Assembly (NCBI RefSeq): GCF_000712055.1
Contig: NZ_JOOA01000002.1
Location: forward strand, 1,302,001 to 1,366,000
Reading direction: 5' to 3'
Origin: Ruminococcus sp. HUN007
GTDB taxonomy: Bacteria > Bacillota > Clostridia > Oscillospirales > Ruminococcaceae
DNA length: 64,000 nt
Below are positions 7,335 to 58,876 of the stretch, piece after piece; within the stretch, counting starts at the first letter, position 1, and each line of letters opens with the position of its first letter. The translations under genes and the position numbers were made by a program. The notes below the pieces were generated by a model. That model was not told where the DNA came from and made no database searches. It saw nothing but the letters and a program-made list of their open reading frames with translations.

Positions 7335-8192
7335 TCATGAGATCACTTTACCCTTTCCGCTGCCGGCTTTCGGAACAACCGCCTGTTCCTTTCCGCCCAT
7401 ATCTTCGAAAAGTATTTCTTCATCATCTTCAGATTCATTATATGATTTTTCCGGATTCTTTTCACCGCGTTCACTGTAGAAAGGATCGATGACATATTTC
7501 TGGATCACCGGATAGCAGCAGAAGCAGATGATGAACATAACAAGTGACGGAATGAGCAGATAGAGTGTCAGAAATATTGTATTTCCCGATATTGCCATCA
7601 GTGCGACCGGGATAAGAGGAAGAACCAGATTGAAAACAAAAGCTGTCATATTCTGTTTGAGTGCTGCAAATGCAAGCAAAACTGAATTTCTGACGATCTG
7701 TTTCATGGAAAGTTTTGTCGAAACGATCATGAGATAAATATAATAATTCATTACCGTAAACGTAACTGAAAAGCTTAGCGTCAGTCCAAGCAGTATTACG
7801 GGTATTACACTTCCGCCGGATTCCGCGCTTCTGATCATGGCCGTATAAAGAATGAAGCCGCAAATCATACCTGTATACGCAATGATATCTATTATTCCGA
7901 CAGCAAAAGCCTTCAGGAAATTCTCTTTGAATGCATTTTTGAAATCAAGCCATACAAAAGCATTCCTGTCAATGGAATACTTCTGCAGGACCCTGAATAC
8001 TCCGGCTGTCGCCGGCCCGATCGTAATGACCGGGATACAGGCAATTATATATATTATATTCAGAACGATAAGCTTCCAGAACCTTACTCCGAGTATTTCG
8101 AAGAAAAGCTTGAGTCCTCCTTTTGACGGCTCATCTTTTGAAATGCCCTTTCCCGCTTTTGTATAATCGCCTATTCCGAAGAATCCTGCCAA
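7335..8192 (-). CDS. DUF624 (YesL-type) membrane protein
   Basis: A 285-residue membrane protein. The N-terminus LAGFFGIGDYTKAGKG and the following segment are typical of DUF624/YesL proteins, small membrane proteins often found near carbohydrate transport genes; their role is unresolved. About five to six membrane segments (for example near LIVLNIIYIIACIPVITIG) and a charged C-terminal tail rich in Glu/Asp. I place the start at TTG 8192: an AGGGAGGTG Shine-Dalgarno lies 7 bases upstream, directly after the proC stop, whereas upstream ATGs at 8255 and 8225 overlap proC and lack one. Probably in an operon with proC (16-base gap). Confidence 0.75.
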   Translation of the reverse strand: MAGFFGIGDYTKAGKGISKDEPSKGGLKLFFEILGVRFWKLIVLNIIYIIACIPVITIGPATAGVFRVLQKYSIDRNAFVWLDFKNAFKENFLKAFAVGIIDIIAYTGMICGFILYTAMIRSAESGGSVIPVILLGLTLSFSVTFTVMNYYIYLMIVSTKLSMKQIVRNSVLLAFAALKQNMTAFVFNLVLPLIPVALMAISGNTIFLTLYLLIPSLVMFIICFCCYPVIQKYVIDPFYSERGEKNPEKSYNESEDDEEILFEDMGGKEQAVVPKAGSGKGKVIS

Positions 8193-8208
8193 AAAAGACA
8201 CCTCCCTG

Positions 8209-9006
8209 TTATTCAGAAAGCTCATAGGCTCTCTTTGTACAGCTGTCACATGCATTTTTTACGACCTGTACCAGATTGCCTTCGTAAAGTCTGTCAAGGC
8301 CGGCAAGAGTTGTGCCGCCCGGTGATGAAACCATCTTAATGAGTTCGTCGATAGTGTTTCCTGAATCGGTTATCATCTTTGCAGAACCAACCAGAGTCTT
8401 TGCAAAGAGCTTCTGTGCAGCTTCAGCTGAAATTCCCTGTTCAGATGCATATTCGATAAACGCCTTGGCAAACAGATAGATAAATGCCGGGCTGCTTCCG
8501 TTGATAGCAATGATCTCTTTCATCTTGTCAGCCGGAAGAACTGCATATTCACCGCAGGCACCGAAAATGCTGCATACAAGAGCAAATTCCTCATCGGATG
8601 TCGGTTCAACCTTTGAAAGTGCTGTTGCACCTTCGCCGAGAAGAAGCGGTGTGTTAGGCATTACCAGAACTGCCTTCAGATCAGGAATCGTACGTGTCTT
8701 AAGATACTCTCCTGAAATACCGGCTGCGATCGATACAACTACCTTTTCAGATGTGAGAACAGGCTTTATTGTTTCGAGAACTCCTGAAAGCACCTGTGGC
8801 TTTACTGCTAAAAAGATGTAGTCACACTTTTCAACAAGATCGCATTCATTTGTGCAGACATTAACACCGATCGATTCTGCACGCTTTCTGAGATCTTCAC
8901 TTATGTCAAAGGCATAAAGTGATATATCTTTAAGAGAACTGCCTGTTATACCCTTCATGATGGCAAAGCCCATATTTCCCGCACCTAAAAATCCAACTTT
9001 TTTCAT
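8209..9006 (-). CDS. proC: Pyrroline-5-carboxylate reductase
   Basis: 265 residues, NAD(P)H-dependent reduction of 1-pyrroline-5-carboxylate to proline, the last step of proline synthesis. The N-terminal Rossmann fold starts VGFLGAGNMGFAIMKG; further family landmarks are FLAVKPQVL, VVSIAAG, VMPNTPLLLGEGATAL, and the C-terminal dimerisation helices with SPGGTT near residue 230. Length is normal. It has its own promoter at 9065-9093 and is probably followed in the same transcript by the DUF624 gene. No proA or proB is nearby. Confidence 0.95.
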   Translation of the reverse strand: MKKVGFLGAGNMGFAIMKGITGSSLKDISLYAFDISEDLRKRAESIGVNVCTNECDLVEKCDYIFLAVKPQVLSGVLETIKPVLTSEKVVVSIAAGISGEYLKTRTIPDLKAVLVMPNTPLLLGEGATALSKVEPTSDEEFALVCSIFGACGEYAVLPADKMKEIIAINGSSPAFIYLFAKAFIEYASEQGISAEAAQKLFAKTLVGSAKMITDSGNTIDELIKMVSSPGGTTLAGLDRLYEGNLVQVVKNACDSCTKRAYELSE

Positions 9007-9064
9007 AGTTAAAAAGATCCTTTCTGATTTTCCGCACCTGCGGAACTATTATTCGCTATATTAC

Positions 9065-9093
9065 ATTATACACAAATTTTCATGTTAAATCAA
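9065..9093 (-). promoter_or_regulatory. proC promoter
   Basis: On the minus strand, -35 TTGATT (9088-9093) and -10 TATAAT (9065-9070) with a 17-base spacer, about 60 bases before the proC start. It makes proC independent of the transcript that ends near 9180. Confidence 0.75.
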
Positions 9094-9177
9094 TAGCAGA
9101 TTATAGTGAACGACAAAAAACATTTATCAATTATAGTTAAAGTGAACGAGTCCGGCATTCATGAATTTTCATTTCTC

Positions 9178-9403
9178 AAAATAAAAATACACCGGATCAG
9201 AGACCAGGTGTATTTTTATTGTTGCATTATTTTAATTATGAATGAAGATTTCGTACCCGGAGTCTGCAAAACTCACTGCAGGACAGCGCCTGCAGATCAT
9301 TTTACAGAAAGGTGGTTTCCTTAAATTAACCACTGTGTGTTCAGGAATACAATATACCGGATTCGTTACGTTTTTATGTCCGGTAATCGTTTTCAACCCT
9401 CTG
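9178..9403 (-). ncRNA. Candidate free-standing structured RNA (~226 nt), family unknown
   Basis: A complete non-coding transcription unit on the minus strand: consensus promoter (9410-9438), about 226 bases without a convincing ORF, then an intrinsic terminator (9180-9220). In 5' to 3' order the RNA can form hairpin 1 (UACCGGA 9385-9379 with UCCGGUA 9361-9355), hairpin 2 (GUGGUU 9333-9328 with AACCAC... arms 9328-9333/9312-9317) and a long hairpin 3 (CUGUAAAA 9307-9300 with UUUUGCAG 9271-9264, then a symmetric UGAU/UGAG loop that can form tandem G-A pairs, then CUGCAGG/CCUGCAG). CCGGA in hairpin 1 could instead pair with UCCGG near 9259. It lacks signatures of tmRNA, RNase P or SRP RNA; size and isolation would suit 6S RNA or an undescribed class. 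Confidence 0.6.
9180..9220 (-). terminator. Intrinsic terminator of the candidate ncRNA
   Basis: A 14-bp perfect stem, AATAAAAATACACC (9180-9193) with GGTGTATTTTTATT (9207-9220), around a 13-base loop, with T-rich sequence on both sides. It closes the unit that starts at about 9403. Confidence 0.8.
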
Positions 9404-9409
9404 TTCAGT

Positions 9410-9438
9410 ATTATATCACAGTATGTAATCGTTGTCAA
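9410..9438 (-). promoter_or_regulatory. Consensus promoter of the candidate ncRNA
   Basis: On the minus strand, a perfect -35 TTGACA (9433-9438) and a perfect -10 TATAAT (9410-9415) with a 17-base spacer. Full consensus at both boxes suggests strong, constitutive transcription. No ORF with a ribosome binding site follows. Confidence 0.85.
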
Positions 9439-9681
9439 TAGAGTTTTTAATTTTTTTATGCGAAATTAATCTGTTTTAAGAGGCTGTTTAATCAGTTTCT
9501 CTCCTGAGAAGTGTCCCCTTAAATTATATCAAAACTGACTATTTTAACATGCACAGTTTTTTTGTATAATAGAGTAAACGGGAAAATTACCCGTAAGCTA
9601 CAGAAGAAACCCTGACTCATTAACAGATCCGTATTTACGGGGCCGTCATCGTTTCATGTCAACAAAGAAGGTGATCATTTA
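9439..9681 (+). promoter_or_regulatory. Leader and promoter region of the pyridoxal kinase gene
   Basis: A -10 TATAAT at 9565-9570 has only a poor -35 17 bases upstream. The roughly 110-base leader that follows contains ACGGG (9578 region), CCCGT (about 9590) and a second ACGGG (about 9636), so CCCGT could pair either way. No known riboswitch was recognised. GAAGGTGATC precedes the start codon. Confidence 0.4.
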
Positions 9682-10544
9682 GTGGCAACTGCTGCTGTTA
9701 TAAACGATATTTCTGGTTTCGGACGATGTTCACTCGGCGTGGCTGTTCCGATACTATCAGTATGCGGCATTCAGGCATGTGCTGTACCTACCGCAGTACT
9801 TACAAACCAGACCGGTTTTCCGGATTACTCATGTATCGATCTTACTGAACATCTCGATAATTATATTAAAATGTGGAAATTATGCGGTGCACGGTTCGAC
9901 GGTATCTACAGCGGATATATCGCTCATCCGAAGCAGGCTGATTTCATAAGCTCATTTATCGATGAATTCCGCAGTGAAAACACTCTCGTTCTTGTTGACC
10001 CGGTCATGGGTGACAACGGAGAGATATACAAGGGATACAGTGAAATAATGTGCGAAAAGATCCGTAACCTTACTCTGAAAGCAGACATTATAACTCCGAA
10101 TCTCACTGAGCTGTGCATACTTTCCGGCGGAAACTTTTCCGAGATCTGTTCGCTCTCAATGGAAAAAAAAGAAAGAGAAAATAAAGGAGCTTGCTCTGAA
10201 ACTCATCGGAAAGAACAGCAGACTTAAGGTTATTGTAACCGGCATCAATGCTGATAACATGATATACAATATGGTTTTTTTTAAACGACAGCGAATATTT
10301 TGCTGTTACTGAACGCCTTGGAAAAAGCTTTTCCGGCACCGGAGATATTTTTGCCTCCGTTACTTTCAGCATGCTGATAAACGGAAAGGATATTCAGACA
10401 GCTATCGACACAGCTTCCGGATTTATCGAAAAATCAATAAAGGACACTCTTGCACTGTCACCTGATCCGGATCACAACTACGGTGTCGAATTTGAAAGAA
10501 ATCTCGGATCACTTGCCGATATTAAGAAAACGCTGATTTATTAA
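9682..10544 (+). pseudogene. Pyridoxal/pyridoxamine kinase (PdxK/PdxY family) with two frameshifts
   Basis: Would phosphorylate B6 vitamers with ATP. The first 163 residues read well (INDISGFGRCSLGVAVPILS, DPVMGDNG, ITPNLTELCIL), then the frame breaks in an A8 run at about 10162-10169. Taking A7 restores a frame (MEKKKEKIKELALKL...) that breaks again at a T8 run at about 10274-10281. Taking T7 restores the rest, including the ribokinase-type GKSFSGTGDIFASV motif with catalytic Asp, and reaches TAA at 10542-10544 (about 286 residues in total). Both breaks are one extra base in an 8-base homopolymer: sequencing error, true decay or slippage. The start codon is GTG. The last codons and the stop lie in a repeat-element end. 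Confidence 0.75.
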
Positions 10545-10554
10545 TAAATCAGCT
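10526..10554. repeat. Solo end of the dispersed palindromic element
   Basis: The sequence AGAAAACGCTGATTTATT followed by AATAAATCAGC matches the inverted right end of the element at 51870-51982 with one or two differences. The core is a perfect 20-bp palindrome. It overlaps the last codons and stop of the pyridoxal kinase gene and may act as a 3' hairpin for its mRNA. Confidence 0.6.
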
Positions 10555-10584
10555 GGTCCCTTTATAAATATGAGGTGAATTAAA

Positions 10585-11196
10585 ATGGATAATAAAAATG
10601 AAATTCTTTATACCTACAAAAACAATGTTTACTTAAATATTACAAACGCCTGTCCGTGTAAATGTGAATTCTGCATCAGAAGCACTACTGATACCGTCGG
10701 CGAATCAGGCAGCCTCTGGCTCAACCACAGTCCTGACTTTAATGAAGTGAGATCAGCCATTGACGGCTTTGATTTCACCGGATATGACGAAGCCATCTTC
10801 TGCGGATACGGCGAACCGACATGTGCTTTTGACGTACTTATCAAAACTGCGGAATATCTTCGTGAAAAAGGTATCAGAACCCGTCTTAACACAAACGGGC
10901 TCAGCGACCTTATCAACAAAAGAAGCACGGCAGAGGAGATCTGTAAAAACATCGGCTCCGTTTCCATCAGTCTCAATGCTTCCGACAAAGTAAAGTATAA
11001 TGACATTGTACACCCTTCCTTCGGCATAATCTCGTTTGACGCAATGCTTAGCTTTGCAAAGGAATGCAGAAAGCACACTGAAAACGTTGCATTTACAGTC
11101 GTAGACGTTATCGGTGAGGAAGAAATTGAAAAATGCCGTAAAATCGCAGAGGAATGCGGTGTTAATTTCCGCGTGAGAGTGTATTCAGCTGATTAA
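10585..11196 (+). CDS. Radical SAM protein (TatD-associated type)
   Basis: 203 residues. The CPCKCEFC segment contains the CxxxCxxC motif that binds the 4Fe-4S cluster for radical S-adenosylmethionine chemistry; FCGYGEPT and TRLNTNGL are typical S-adenosylmethionine-contacting segments. The short length and the sequence around VYLNITNACPC fit the subfamily of small radical SAM proteins usually found next to TatD DNases. No tatD gene is present here, and the substrate is unknown. The start ATG has a GAGGTGAAT site. It lies 40 bases after the pyridoxal kinase gene on the same strand, so the two are possibly co-transcribed. Confidence 0.8.
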   Translation: MDNKNEILYTYKNNVYLNITNACPCKCEFCIRSTTDTVGESGSLWLNHSPDFNEVRSAIDGFDFTGYDEAIFCGYGEPTCAFDVLIKTAEYLREKGIRTRLNTNGLSDLINKRSTAEEICKNIGSVSISLNASDKVKYNDIVHPSFGIISFDAMLSFAKECRKHTENVAFTVVDVIGEEEIEKCRKIAEECGVNFRVRVYSAD

Positions 11197-29089: not shown

Positions 29090-29287
29090 GTAACACAACA
29101 CACGAACAGACAGTCCTCACGCATACGCAACCCGCAGTAACACGGAGGAAAATCTTATCACACACAGTGTTCGTTATTACAATCGCCCGGTTTAAAATCG
29201 GACATACTCCACGAAAATTCCCTGTCATACCGACAGCAACCTTTCGCTTCATCGCATATCATCTGCAGTCGTTCAGACTGCTCTTCT
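29090..29287 (-). promoter_or_regulatory. 5' leader of the S10-spc-alpha operon
   Basis: About 200 transcribed bases between promoter and leader terminator, with no credible ORF. It opens with hairpin GCAGTC-TGAAC-GACTGC (about 29265-29281), followed by a CTGTCGGTATGACAG stem-loop. It probably holds the regulatory fold that decides read-through, perhaps by binding a product of the operon. The family was not recognised. Confidence 0.55.
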
Positions 29288-56901: not shown

Positions 56902-58857
56902 TTGACTGGAACTAAAAAAATAACAGCAGCCCTTCTTTCACTCTGCCTTATCTGCGCATCATTCTCTCTGAACGGCTGCAGCCAGACAGATGAGAATACA
57001 TCCGTCACGGACACACGTTCTTCCGGCAGCTCTGCTGACAATGACGACAGTGAAGAGGAAGATACCTCCGATGGCGAATCATCACAGGATTCTGATGAAG
57101 AAAGCAGTTCCGATGATGATGACAGCGATAAGGAGAAAGAAACAAACAAGAACAAAGACGGTAAAGGCTCCGGCGAGGATGCTGATACCAAAAAGATCGC
57201 CTTTACTTTAAAGAACGGTAACAGCTGGCCGGAAGGAAACATTAACATTTACCAGCTCGACGGCACTGTTACAAACAACCAGTCCGCAGCGATAAGCGAC
57301 TGGAAAGTAACGGTTCCTGTAAACAAGGACATCGACGTCAAGAATTCATGGGGACTTACCTGGGAGCTTGACGGAAGCACACTTATTATCAAGCCGGACA
57401 ACAACACCGGCAATATTCTTCCTAACGGAAGCATAAACTTCGGCATACAGATCGCATCGCCTGAAGATATAAGTGCAAAGGAAGCCGTATTTACCGCAAA
57501 GAATACATCGGCTTCAAACAACGTACAGAACGGACAGAACAACAACAACAATAACAATAATAATAATAATAACGAAAACCAGAACCAGAACAATAATCAG
57601 AACAGCGGACAGACATCCTCACCGAATGCCAAGGATGTTCCTGCTCCTTCAACAGATGACTGGCTCAGTGTTGAAAAGAATAAGATCGTTGATTCAAACG
57701 GTAAGGAAGTATGGCTTACCGGATGCAACTGGTTCGGCTACAACACCGGTACAAACATTTTCGACGGACTCTGGAACGCTGATCTGAACACATCTGTAAA
57801 CGCCATTGCAGACCACGGTTTCAATCTTATCAGAATTCCTATCTCAACCGAACTCGTAAATCAGTGGGAGGACGGTACCTATCCGCAGGCAAACTTCAAC
57901 CAGGCTACAAACTCCTATCTCGTGGGAATGAACAGCCTTGAGATATTCAACTACGTTATCGGTCAGTGCCGTGCCAACGGTATGAAGATCATGATCGATT
58001 TCCACTGTGCAACAACAAACGCCGCAGGTCATAACTATCCGTTATGGTGCGACGACAAGATATCAGAAAAGGACTACATCAGAGCCCTTGAATGGATCGC
58101 TTCAACATACAAAAATGACGATACTATCATCGCCATCGACCTCGAAAATGAACCTCACGGGAAGCCTGATGAGAAGCCTCGCGCAAAGTGGGATGATTCA
58201 AAGGATTCCGACAACTGGAAGTACATTGCTGAAAAGGCCGGTCTTGCAGTTCTGAACAAGAACCCTAACCTGCTCGTCATGGTCGAAGGTATTGAGTGCT
58301 ATCCTGTTGACACTAAGAAAAACGGTAATTACAAGTCCACAGACAAGTCTGACTACTACTTCAACTGGTGGGGCGGAAACCTCCGCGGCGTAGCAGACCA
58401 TCCTGTAGACCTCGGCAAGTATAACAACAAGCTCGTTTATTCACCTCACGACTACGGCCCGACAGTTTACGAACAGCCGTGGTTCGAAGGCAGCTACACA
58501 TTCGATTCCCTCATGGATGACTGCTGGCGCGACAACTGGTTCTACATCTACGAACAGAAAAAAGCTCCGCTCCTCATCGGTGAATGGGGCGGCTTCATGA
58601 AGGAACCAAACCTCACATGGATGACCTACTGCAGAAAACTCATCAAGGAAAACAAGCTCCACCACACATTCTGGTGCTTCAACGCAAATTCCGGAGATAC
58701 AGGCGGACTTGTACTTGATGACTTCACAACATGGGACAACGACAAGTACGAATTCGTAAAGGAAGTTCTCTGGCAGACAGACGACGGCAAATTCATCGGC
58801 CTCGACCACCAGATCCCACTCGGAGAAAACGGAATTTCACTTTCAGATTATCGCTGA
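56902..58857 (+). CDS. Lipoprotein GH5 cellulase with CBM-like module
   Basis: 651 residues. Start TTG at 56902 with AAAGGATGAG upstream (an ATG at 56891 ends after four codons). Signal peptide with lipobox LNGC (Cys26), so membrane-anchored on the outside. Then a Ser/Asp/Glu-rich linker (about 30-100), a beta-sandwich module of about 100 residues with FTLKNGNSWPEGNINIYQLD and WKVTVPVNKDIDVKNSW resembling family 2-like carbohydrate-binding modules, a poly-Asn linker (12 N in a row), and a GH5 catalytic domain: GCNWFGYNTGTNIFDGLWN, IAIDLENEPHG (acid/base Glu), LLIGEWGGFM (nucleophile Glu). This fits an endoglucanase (GH5_1-like). No dockerin, so it acts on the cell surface independently of a cellulosome. 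Confidence 0.93.
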   Translation: MTGTKKITAALLSLCLICASFSLNGCSQTDENTSVTDTRSSGSSADNDDSEEEDTSDGESSQDSDEESSSDDDDSDKEKETNKNKDGKGSGEDADTKKIAFTLKNGNSWPEGNINIYQLDGTVTNNQSAAISDWKVTVPVNKDIDVKNSWGLTWELDGSTLIIKPDNNTGNILPNGSINFGIQIASPEDISAKEAVFTAKNTSASNNVQNGQNNNNNNNNNNNNENQNQNNNQNSGQTSSPNAKDVPAPSTDDWLSVEKNKIVDSNGKEVWLTGCNWFGYNTGTNIFDGLWNADLNTSVNAIADHGFNLIRIPISTELVNQWEDGTYPQANFNQATNSYLVGMNSLEIFNYVIGQCRANGMKIMIDFHCATTNAAGHNYPLWCDDKISEKDYIRALEWIASTYKNDDTIIAIDLENEPHGKPDEKPRAKWDDSKDSDNWKYIAEKAGLAVLNKNPNLLVMVEGIECYPVDTKKNGNYKSTDKSDYYFNWWGGNLRGVADHPVDLGKYNNKLVYSPHDYGPTVYEQPWFEGSYTFDSLMDDCWRDNWFYIYEQKKAPLLIGEWGGFMKEPNLTWMTYCRKLIKENKLHHTFWCFNANSGDTGGLVLDDFTTWDNDKYEFVKEVLWQTDDGKFIGLDHQIPLGENGISLSDYR

Positions 58858-58876
58858 TAATTCAAAACAAACATAA

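Follow-up and report, generated by a model that had tools for sequence, protein, structure and literature searches.

The window analysed here is a 64-kb stretch of DNA from Ruminococcus sp. HUN007 (genome G000; relatives are given by similar numbers), and the coordinates of the unit are positions in it. The unit is encoded on the minus strand, with proC on one side and a pyridoxal-kinase-like gene on the other, and its predicted RNA runs from about 9404 to 9178, a length of about 227 nt. A first-pass annotation of the same DNA had described it as a complete non-coding transcription unit, and at the sequence level this was confirmed: it has its own promoter and terminator and no ORF between them, as is seen with trans-acting base-pairing sRNAs. 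The following features were recognised.

9410..9438, minus strand: promoter TTGACA-17-TATAAT with TG before the second hexamer (promoter scan and alignment with relatives)
about 9404, minus strand: transcription start, inferred from the promoter
9424..9438, minus strand: first LacI/cre-like operator, TTGACAACGATTACA, overlapping the -35 box (alignment)
9382..9396, minus strand: second LacI/cre-like operator, TTGAAAACGATTACC, just 3' of the inferred start (alignment)
9349..9390, minus strand: hairpin 1, a 5'-UTR hairpin (folds; reforms in G009, G005, G003 and G007)
9312..9345, minus strand: junction zone, the place of a missing ORF (alignment with relatives)
9333-9312, minus strand: hairpin 2, inside the junction zone (not seen in G009)
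9263..9308, minus strand: hairpin 3, a 3'-UTR hairpin (folds; reforms in G009, G005 and G003, shortened in G007)
9219..9245, minus strand: antisense segment, UCAUUCAUAAUUAAAAUAAUGCAACAA, predicted to pair with the leader of a GH5-dockerin gene at G000:C2:2678023-2678049
9180..9220, minus strand: intrinsic terminator of the unit, 14 + 4 pairs (fold; kept in aligned relatives)

The perfect TTGACA-17-TATAAT claimed for this strand was recovered at 9438-9410 as the sole 12/12 match within 8000-11000. Eleven promoter-like sites were found in this interval compared with 6.9 +/- 2.9 in shuffles, so it is the perfect score of the site that matters and not the count. A promoter-like site of proC itself, TTGATT-17-TATAAT, lies at 9093-9065, in agreement with the earlier statement that the unit is not the proC leader. 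The terminator at 9220-9180 was missed by a pattern scan and found in the RNA fold, where the 14-bp stem described before is extended by four further pairs. The two operators are labelled LacI/cre-like after a motif that we take to be the relevant one. The pyridoxal-kinase-like gene (window 9682-10544) is read in two frames of 181 and 57 aa, and its G009 counterpart in one frame of 285 aa. The reading frame may shift at two homopolymers, A8 near 10163-10170 and T8 near 10275-10282, either through a read error or through real decay.

No convincing ORF was found in the 227-nt stretch, as had been stated for about 226 bases of it. A 68-aa frame with a TTG start begins within the promoter, and its in-frame continuation from an ATG loses the frame in G009 and G005 (alignment, by eye), which ruled out a small-protein gene. 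The RNA folds with -68 kcal/mol compared with -44.7 +/- 4.1 for 200 dinucleotide shuffles, none of which reached this value (z -5.7), and much of this energy is accounted for by the terminator and hairpin 3. From the three hairpins drawn in the first-pass annotation, hairpin 1 reforms from differing sequence in all four relatives folded (G009, G005, G003 and G007) and hairpin 3 in three of them, being shorter in G007, but hairpin 2 was not seen in G009. The tandem G-A pairs suggested for the internal loop of hairpin 3 are possible in G000, G009 and G005 but not in G003 (by eye). A structural switch between CCGGA and UCCGG had also been considered; the UCCGG partner near 9259 is absent from the alignment in G009 and G005, and the proposal was dropped.

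A search of the 64-kb window against Rfam gave no match at the unit at gathering scores, and up to an E value of 10 merely sub-threshold matches, mostly to the terminator; the check that the annotation had called for thus returned no known class. The sole gathering-score match in the window was an S10-Clostridia ribosomal protein leader (RF03136, 48.1 bits) at 29183-29261 on the minus strand. The 6S RNA, previously the leading alternative, is similar to the unit in size and isolation, but its covariance model (RF00013) has no match at the unit and a single one elsewhere in the genome, at C2:2906362-2906549 with 63.9 bits (gathering score 46.4), and 6S RNA was rejected.

Relationship to a GH74-like dockerin gene

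In a nucleotide search of 61 genomes the unit was matched in seven, namely G000, five others of the genus and one outside it, the latter by a 34-nt match. Its two halves lie on the same strand and 2.8-3.0 kb apart in G009, G003 and G007, and a single ORF of 926, 899 and 914 aa, respectively, is located between them. In G005 the halves are found near the ends of two contigs, together with both ends of the same ORF. The G009 product consists of Sortilin/BNR repeats and a C-terminal dockerin, and Pfam gave repeat and dockerin families only; presumably it is a GH74 enzyme of the xyloglucanase type, and it is called GH74-like here. A strain-comparison table (PMC4081043) lists GH74 in one row for several ruminococcal strains.

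Orthologs of the GH74-like gene with 71% identity or more were found in 8 of the 11 genus genomes, upstream of proC in seven of the eight. The distance is less than 2 kb in G009, G005, G003, G006, G010 and G008 and about 6 kb in G007; in G002 the gene is about 14 kb from proC. The assemblies of G000 and G001 contain no ortholog, only distant paralogs (28% and 31%). G004 was counted neither as presence nor as loss, since its proC contig stops short of the position that the gene occupies in G007. Where the flanks align, the promoter, tandem operators and 5' UTR of the gene form the 5' part of the unit, and its 3' UTR and terminator the 3' part. The relatives therefore have an ORF between the same flanks which is absent in G000, as expected of a gene remnant. 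It is well supported by these alignments, and nearly certain unless the assembly has a gap here, that the unit is the shell of a GH74-like dockerin gene, whose 5' end was joined to its 3' end after the ORF was lost. The hairpins are the 5'- and 3'-UTR hairpins of the GH74-like dockerin mRNA, and the idea of an unrecognised class of structured RNA was abandoned.

The letters of the junction zone show no clear alignment to either ORF end in G009 or G005. In G009 the ORF is flanked by a 10-bp direct repeat, CATCTTTCTG (L016 3196-3205 and 6038-6047), with one copy just before the ribosome-binding site and the other just after the stop; the repeat is a possible deletion hot spot. In a tree of proC, G000 groups with G005 and G009, and G001 is placed elsewhere, its exact place being weak. 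Given these positions, an ancestral presence of the gene in the genus would require at least two separate ORF losses, and the losses in G000 and G001 were apparently independent.

A second ORF-less unit adjoining proC was observed in G001 (contig 31, L021 about 905-1095). It comprises a promoter, a GTAAACGTTTAC operator, the 3' motif and a terminator, and measures about 150 nt from start to end. Operator-like sites of the GTAAACGTTTTC type were seen by eye in this unit and in the leaders of the GH74 genes of G010, G008 and G002. A nucleotide match search gave no strong target for the G001 unit (best E 0.15). One weak match (E 0.53) at L254 about 1470-1530 (G001 contig 65) is antisense to a GGAGGAATAAATG start region by eye, and this region could possibly be a different target in G001.

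The two ends of the unit were also compared with those of the intact genes. The promoter and operator block of G000 carries one change of its own in 60 columns relative to G009, G005, G003 and G007, and neither of the LacI/cre-like operators is damaged. Of the changes in the 137-column 3' block, five are private to G000, two to G005 and one to G009. The 3' block of G000 has therefore changed somewhat faster than those of its sisters, which was counted against a regulatory reading.

Complementarity to the leader of a GH5-dockerin gene

The six genomes with the locus (G000, G001, G003, G005, G007 and G009) all conserve the stretch that immediately precedes the terminator, and this was noted before the other match of the stretch was looked at. 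Besides itself, the unit has a single non-overlapping match in G000 (E 2.8e-4), and this is antisense to the leader of a GH5 gene. The gene encodes 688 aa with a Pfam Cellulase domain, and its C-terminal end reads by eye as a dockerin. Positions 9245-9219 of the RNA can form 27 contiguous pairs with the GH5 leader, two of them G-U. The helix would stop beside the Shine-Dalgarno sequence, about 20 nt short of the AUG taken as the GH5 start. The first-pass annotation had missed this telling part of the unit, an unpaired pre-terminator stretch antisense to a GH5-dockerin mRNA leader. A distant relative of the target GH5 (47% identity) was observed within the window at 57595-58863 on the plus strand, the match being interrupted by one TGA and one TAA.

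The strength of the match was assessed with a 38-nt segment, which was delimited after the match had been seen, so that a factor of a few should be allowed on the fitted chance estimate of about 0.0017 matches genome-wide at the observed score. The segment scored 53 on the GH5 site compared with a maximum of 36 in 400 kb of G000 on both strands and at most 29 against 310 leaders, and none of 5000 shuffled segments reached 53, the highest being 39. The duplex of the segment with the GH5 leader had an energy of -34.5 kcal/mol, compared with a minimum of -18.1 over the 310 leaders. A helix-energy scan with the whole RNA was not unusual, with 0.8 equally good helices expected per genome; this was counted against regulation, and the unremarkable result is explained by the G+C-rich stems, which find matches of their own. 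Duplex folding of the whole RNA against leaders was permissive and uninformative.

In the predicted fold of the G000 RNA the segment is unpaired with a value of 0.85 compared with 0.37 for the rest. The contrast is smaller in G009 (0.51 compared with 0.40), and in each of the six genomes the segment is more unpaired than the rest of the RNA. The GH5 site is about half unpaired in its own leader (0.47), which was counted against regulation. As in known sRNAs, the RNA has a segment that is predicted to be accessible and that matches an mRNA leader in antisense better than chance would allow; this holds for the 38-nt segment and not for the whole-RNA scan. The segment lies in the 3' UTR of an intact mRNA, immediately following the ORF and upstream of the terminator, in G009, G003 and G007, and in G005 it follows the ORF that is cut by the contig start.

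The motif is rare. A 14-mer, TTAAAATAATGCAA, is present as a single copy in 7 of the 11 genus genomes, in six of them at the unit locus, and is absent in the other four, which ruled out a repeated genomic element. In G008 the 14-mer overlaps a -35-like box and has an ORF read as GH10-like downstream of it; this copy was taken as chance. The pattern TTGTTGYATTRTTTTWA with up to one mismatch gave 28 matches in the 11 genomes compared with 19 for a reversed control. All 10 matches without mismatch were located at the unit, the 3' UTR of the GH74 gene or the GH5 leader, as was one of the 18 with a single mismatch, in the GH5 leader of G003. With up to two mismatches the 3' motif was found in 12 of 396 family genomes, including G000, G001, G005 and G009 at the unit, and G005 and G009 also had matches at the GH5 leader; G003, G007, G008 and G002 were left out of this family draw. 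In G000 there are 35 near-matches with 2-3 mismatches.

The GH5 leader site is present in five of the six genomes with the RNA motif. The scores of each RNA with its own leader were 53 in G000, 46 in G009, 45 in G005, 45 in G003 and 44 in G007, and the corresponding duplex energies were -34.5, -25.5, -25.5, -29.8 and -26.3 kcal/mol. The GH5 leader of G001 has no site (score 21) though the RNA motif is kept there, and this was counted against regulation. The GH5 leaders of G010, G008, G002 and G006 did not exceed a score of 26 with any of the six RNAs. A blastn search with the 63-nt 3' UTR of G007 did not have the GH5 leader among its matches, and this was likewise counted against regulation.

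There are some signs that RNA and leader change together. The G000 RNA carries a change of CAAAAT to CATAAT, which is matched by a partner change in its own GH5 leader; when it is paired with the GH5 leaders of the other genomes that have the site, its score drops to 40, and that of the G007 RNA drops from 44 to 39-40. The RNAs of G009 and G005 scored equally or higher with the leaders of other genomes, which was counted against regulation. In a hand calculation over four leader groups, the true assignment of RNAs to leaders only shares first place by score (2 of 24), and by duplex energy it comes first by a narrow margin (1 of 24). A 17-nt core, TTAAAATAATGCAACAA, is identical in the five RNAs, among which proC differs at 0.25 to 0.50 of four-fold sites. 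By eye, the entire GH5 leader is fairly conserved beyond the pairing site, and this was also counted against regulation.

Proposed function and alternatives

The best-supported function would be an action of the RNA on GH5. We suggest, with a probability of about one in two, that the unit is a regulatory RNA of the 3'-UTR type which was freed by the loss of the ORF and acts on the GH5-dockerin leader. Transcription would start when a LacI-family repressor, in response to some inducer, leaves the tandem operators. The unpaired segment 9245-9219 would then pair in the cell with the mRNA leader of the GH5-dockerin cellulase beside the Shine-Dalgarno sequence and presumably lower its translation or stability; this direction is assumed from the position, and activation would be possible too. 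Hfq, encoded in 10 of the 11 genus genomes and not found in G004, may take part in the pairing. Relatives with the GH74-like gene carry the conserved antisense stretch in its 3' UTR, and in G000 the stretch would belong to a stand-alone RNA of about 227 nt. A little more tentatively, the 3'-UTR regulatory RNA of a cellulosomal GH74-like gene could have survived the loss of the whole ORF under the operator-controlled promoter of that gene and, co-varying with the GH5-dockerin leader, link two cellulosome enzymes, which would make it a stand-alone sRNA gene that arose by ORF loss.

The main rival to a regulatory RNA is that the unit is a non-functional scar with ends not yet decayed, its GH5 match being fortuitous or useful only while the gene existed. 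This has a lesser but considerable probability. The loss of the ORF is certain in kind and may be recent, given the place of G000 beside G005 and G009 in the proC tree; the excess of changes in the G000 3' block and the similar G001 unit with no GH5 site point the same way. However, a match of the segment as good as this is expected by chance only about 0.002 times genome-wide, it falls beside the ribosome-binding site of a second gene for a dockerin enzyme, no other pairing in the clade is as good as that of G000, which is not a decaying one, and the promoter and operators are intact. Loss of the ORF only on paper, by its being dropped from the assembly and still present in the organism, is very improbable. 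The apparent homopolymer frameshifts in the adjacent kinase gene, maybe read errors, and the 10-bp repeat around the ORF in G009 could be taken to suggest it, but 10 bp is short for an assembly collapse, the junction letters do not clearly align with either end in G009 or G005, and the best match elsewhere in the assembly has 28% identity and is no ortholog.

Two further explanations were considered. One regulatory protein could bind both loci, in opposite orientation, the RNA pairing being incidental; the GH5 leader and the 3' region of the GH74 gene do share these letters, and the data are DNA data only. We consider this improbable, because the segment is no evident palindrome by eye, one copy is at the end of a gene, both differences within the G000 pair are G-U compatible, and a position with G in the RNA and U in the leader is kept in five genomes. 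There is a similarly small chance that the RNA is functional but acts on other targets, either together with GH5 or in its place. The 3' motif kept in G001 with no GH5 site would fit such a role, but apart from its own terminator no further match was found in G000 at an E value of 0.001 or better.

To our knowledge, the origin of stand-alone bacterial sRNA genes is seldom caught in the act. Like canonical stand-alone trans-acting sRNAs, the unit has its own promoter, a predicted short non-coding transcript, a terminator hairpin and an unpaired segment able to pair with a leader close to its ribosome-binding site; it differs from them in that its origin can be traced to a protein-coding gene, in having one candidate target and in being known from sequence alone. 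IpeX and the SgrS homologues that lack the SgrT ORF are said to be sRNAs in gene remnants, and with them the unit shares a non-coding RNA where relatives have or once had a coding sequence, although here nearly the whole ORF is lost and both UTRs are kept.

CpxQ, SdhX, RsaC and s-SodF are 3'-UTR-derived sRNAs (PMC9438474), and in the passages of that review on such RNAs they resemble the unit in having an antisense segment in an mRNA 3' UTR, the terminator of the mRNA itself and a target of related function, the last as proposed for the unit. In these passages they are processed from the mRNA or made from an internal promoter, whereas the RNA of the unit is a predicted primary transcript that includes the 5' UTR, with the ORF gone. 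An sRNA left by ORF loss is not described in the passages of the review covering 3'-end sRNAs, and the terms pseudogene and remnant are absent from its text. The cip-cel mRNAs stabilised by stem-loops (PMC8219983) likewise combine a cellulosomal gene with strong 3'-UTR stem-loops, but the mechanism described there sets transcript ratios within an operon and has no antisense target, unlike the one proposed here. Judged from titles and abstract openings, the literature gave no sRNA for cellulosome genes in Ruminococcus.

Since the sister genomes have an intact mRNA with an antisense 3' UTR and G000 has the same ends with no ORF between them, the route from an mRNA to an sRNA can be tested directly at this locus, and the pairing of the RNA with the GH5 leader can be tested by simple mutations. 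If true, this would be a candidate case in which base pairing controls the supply of cellulosome enzymes through one defined target, and in which a regulatory RNA may have outlived the plant-fibre enzyme gene from which it came.
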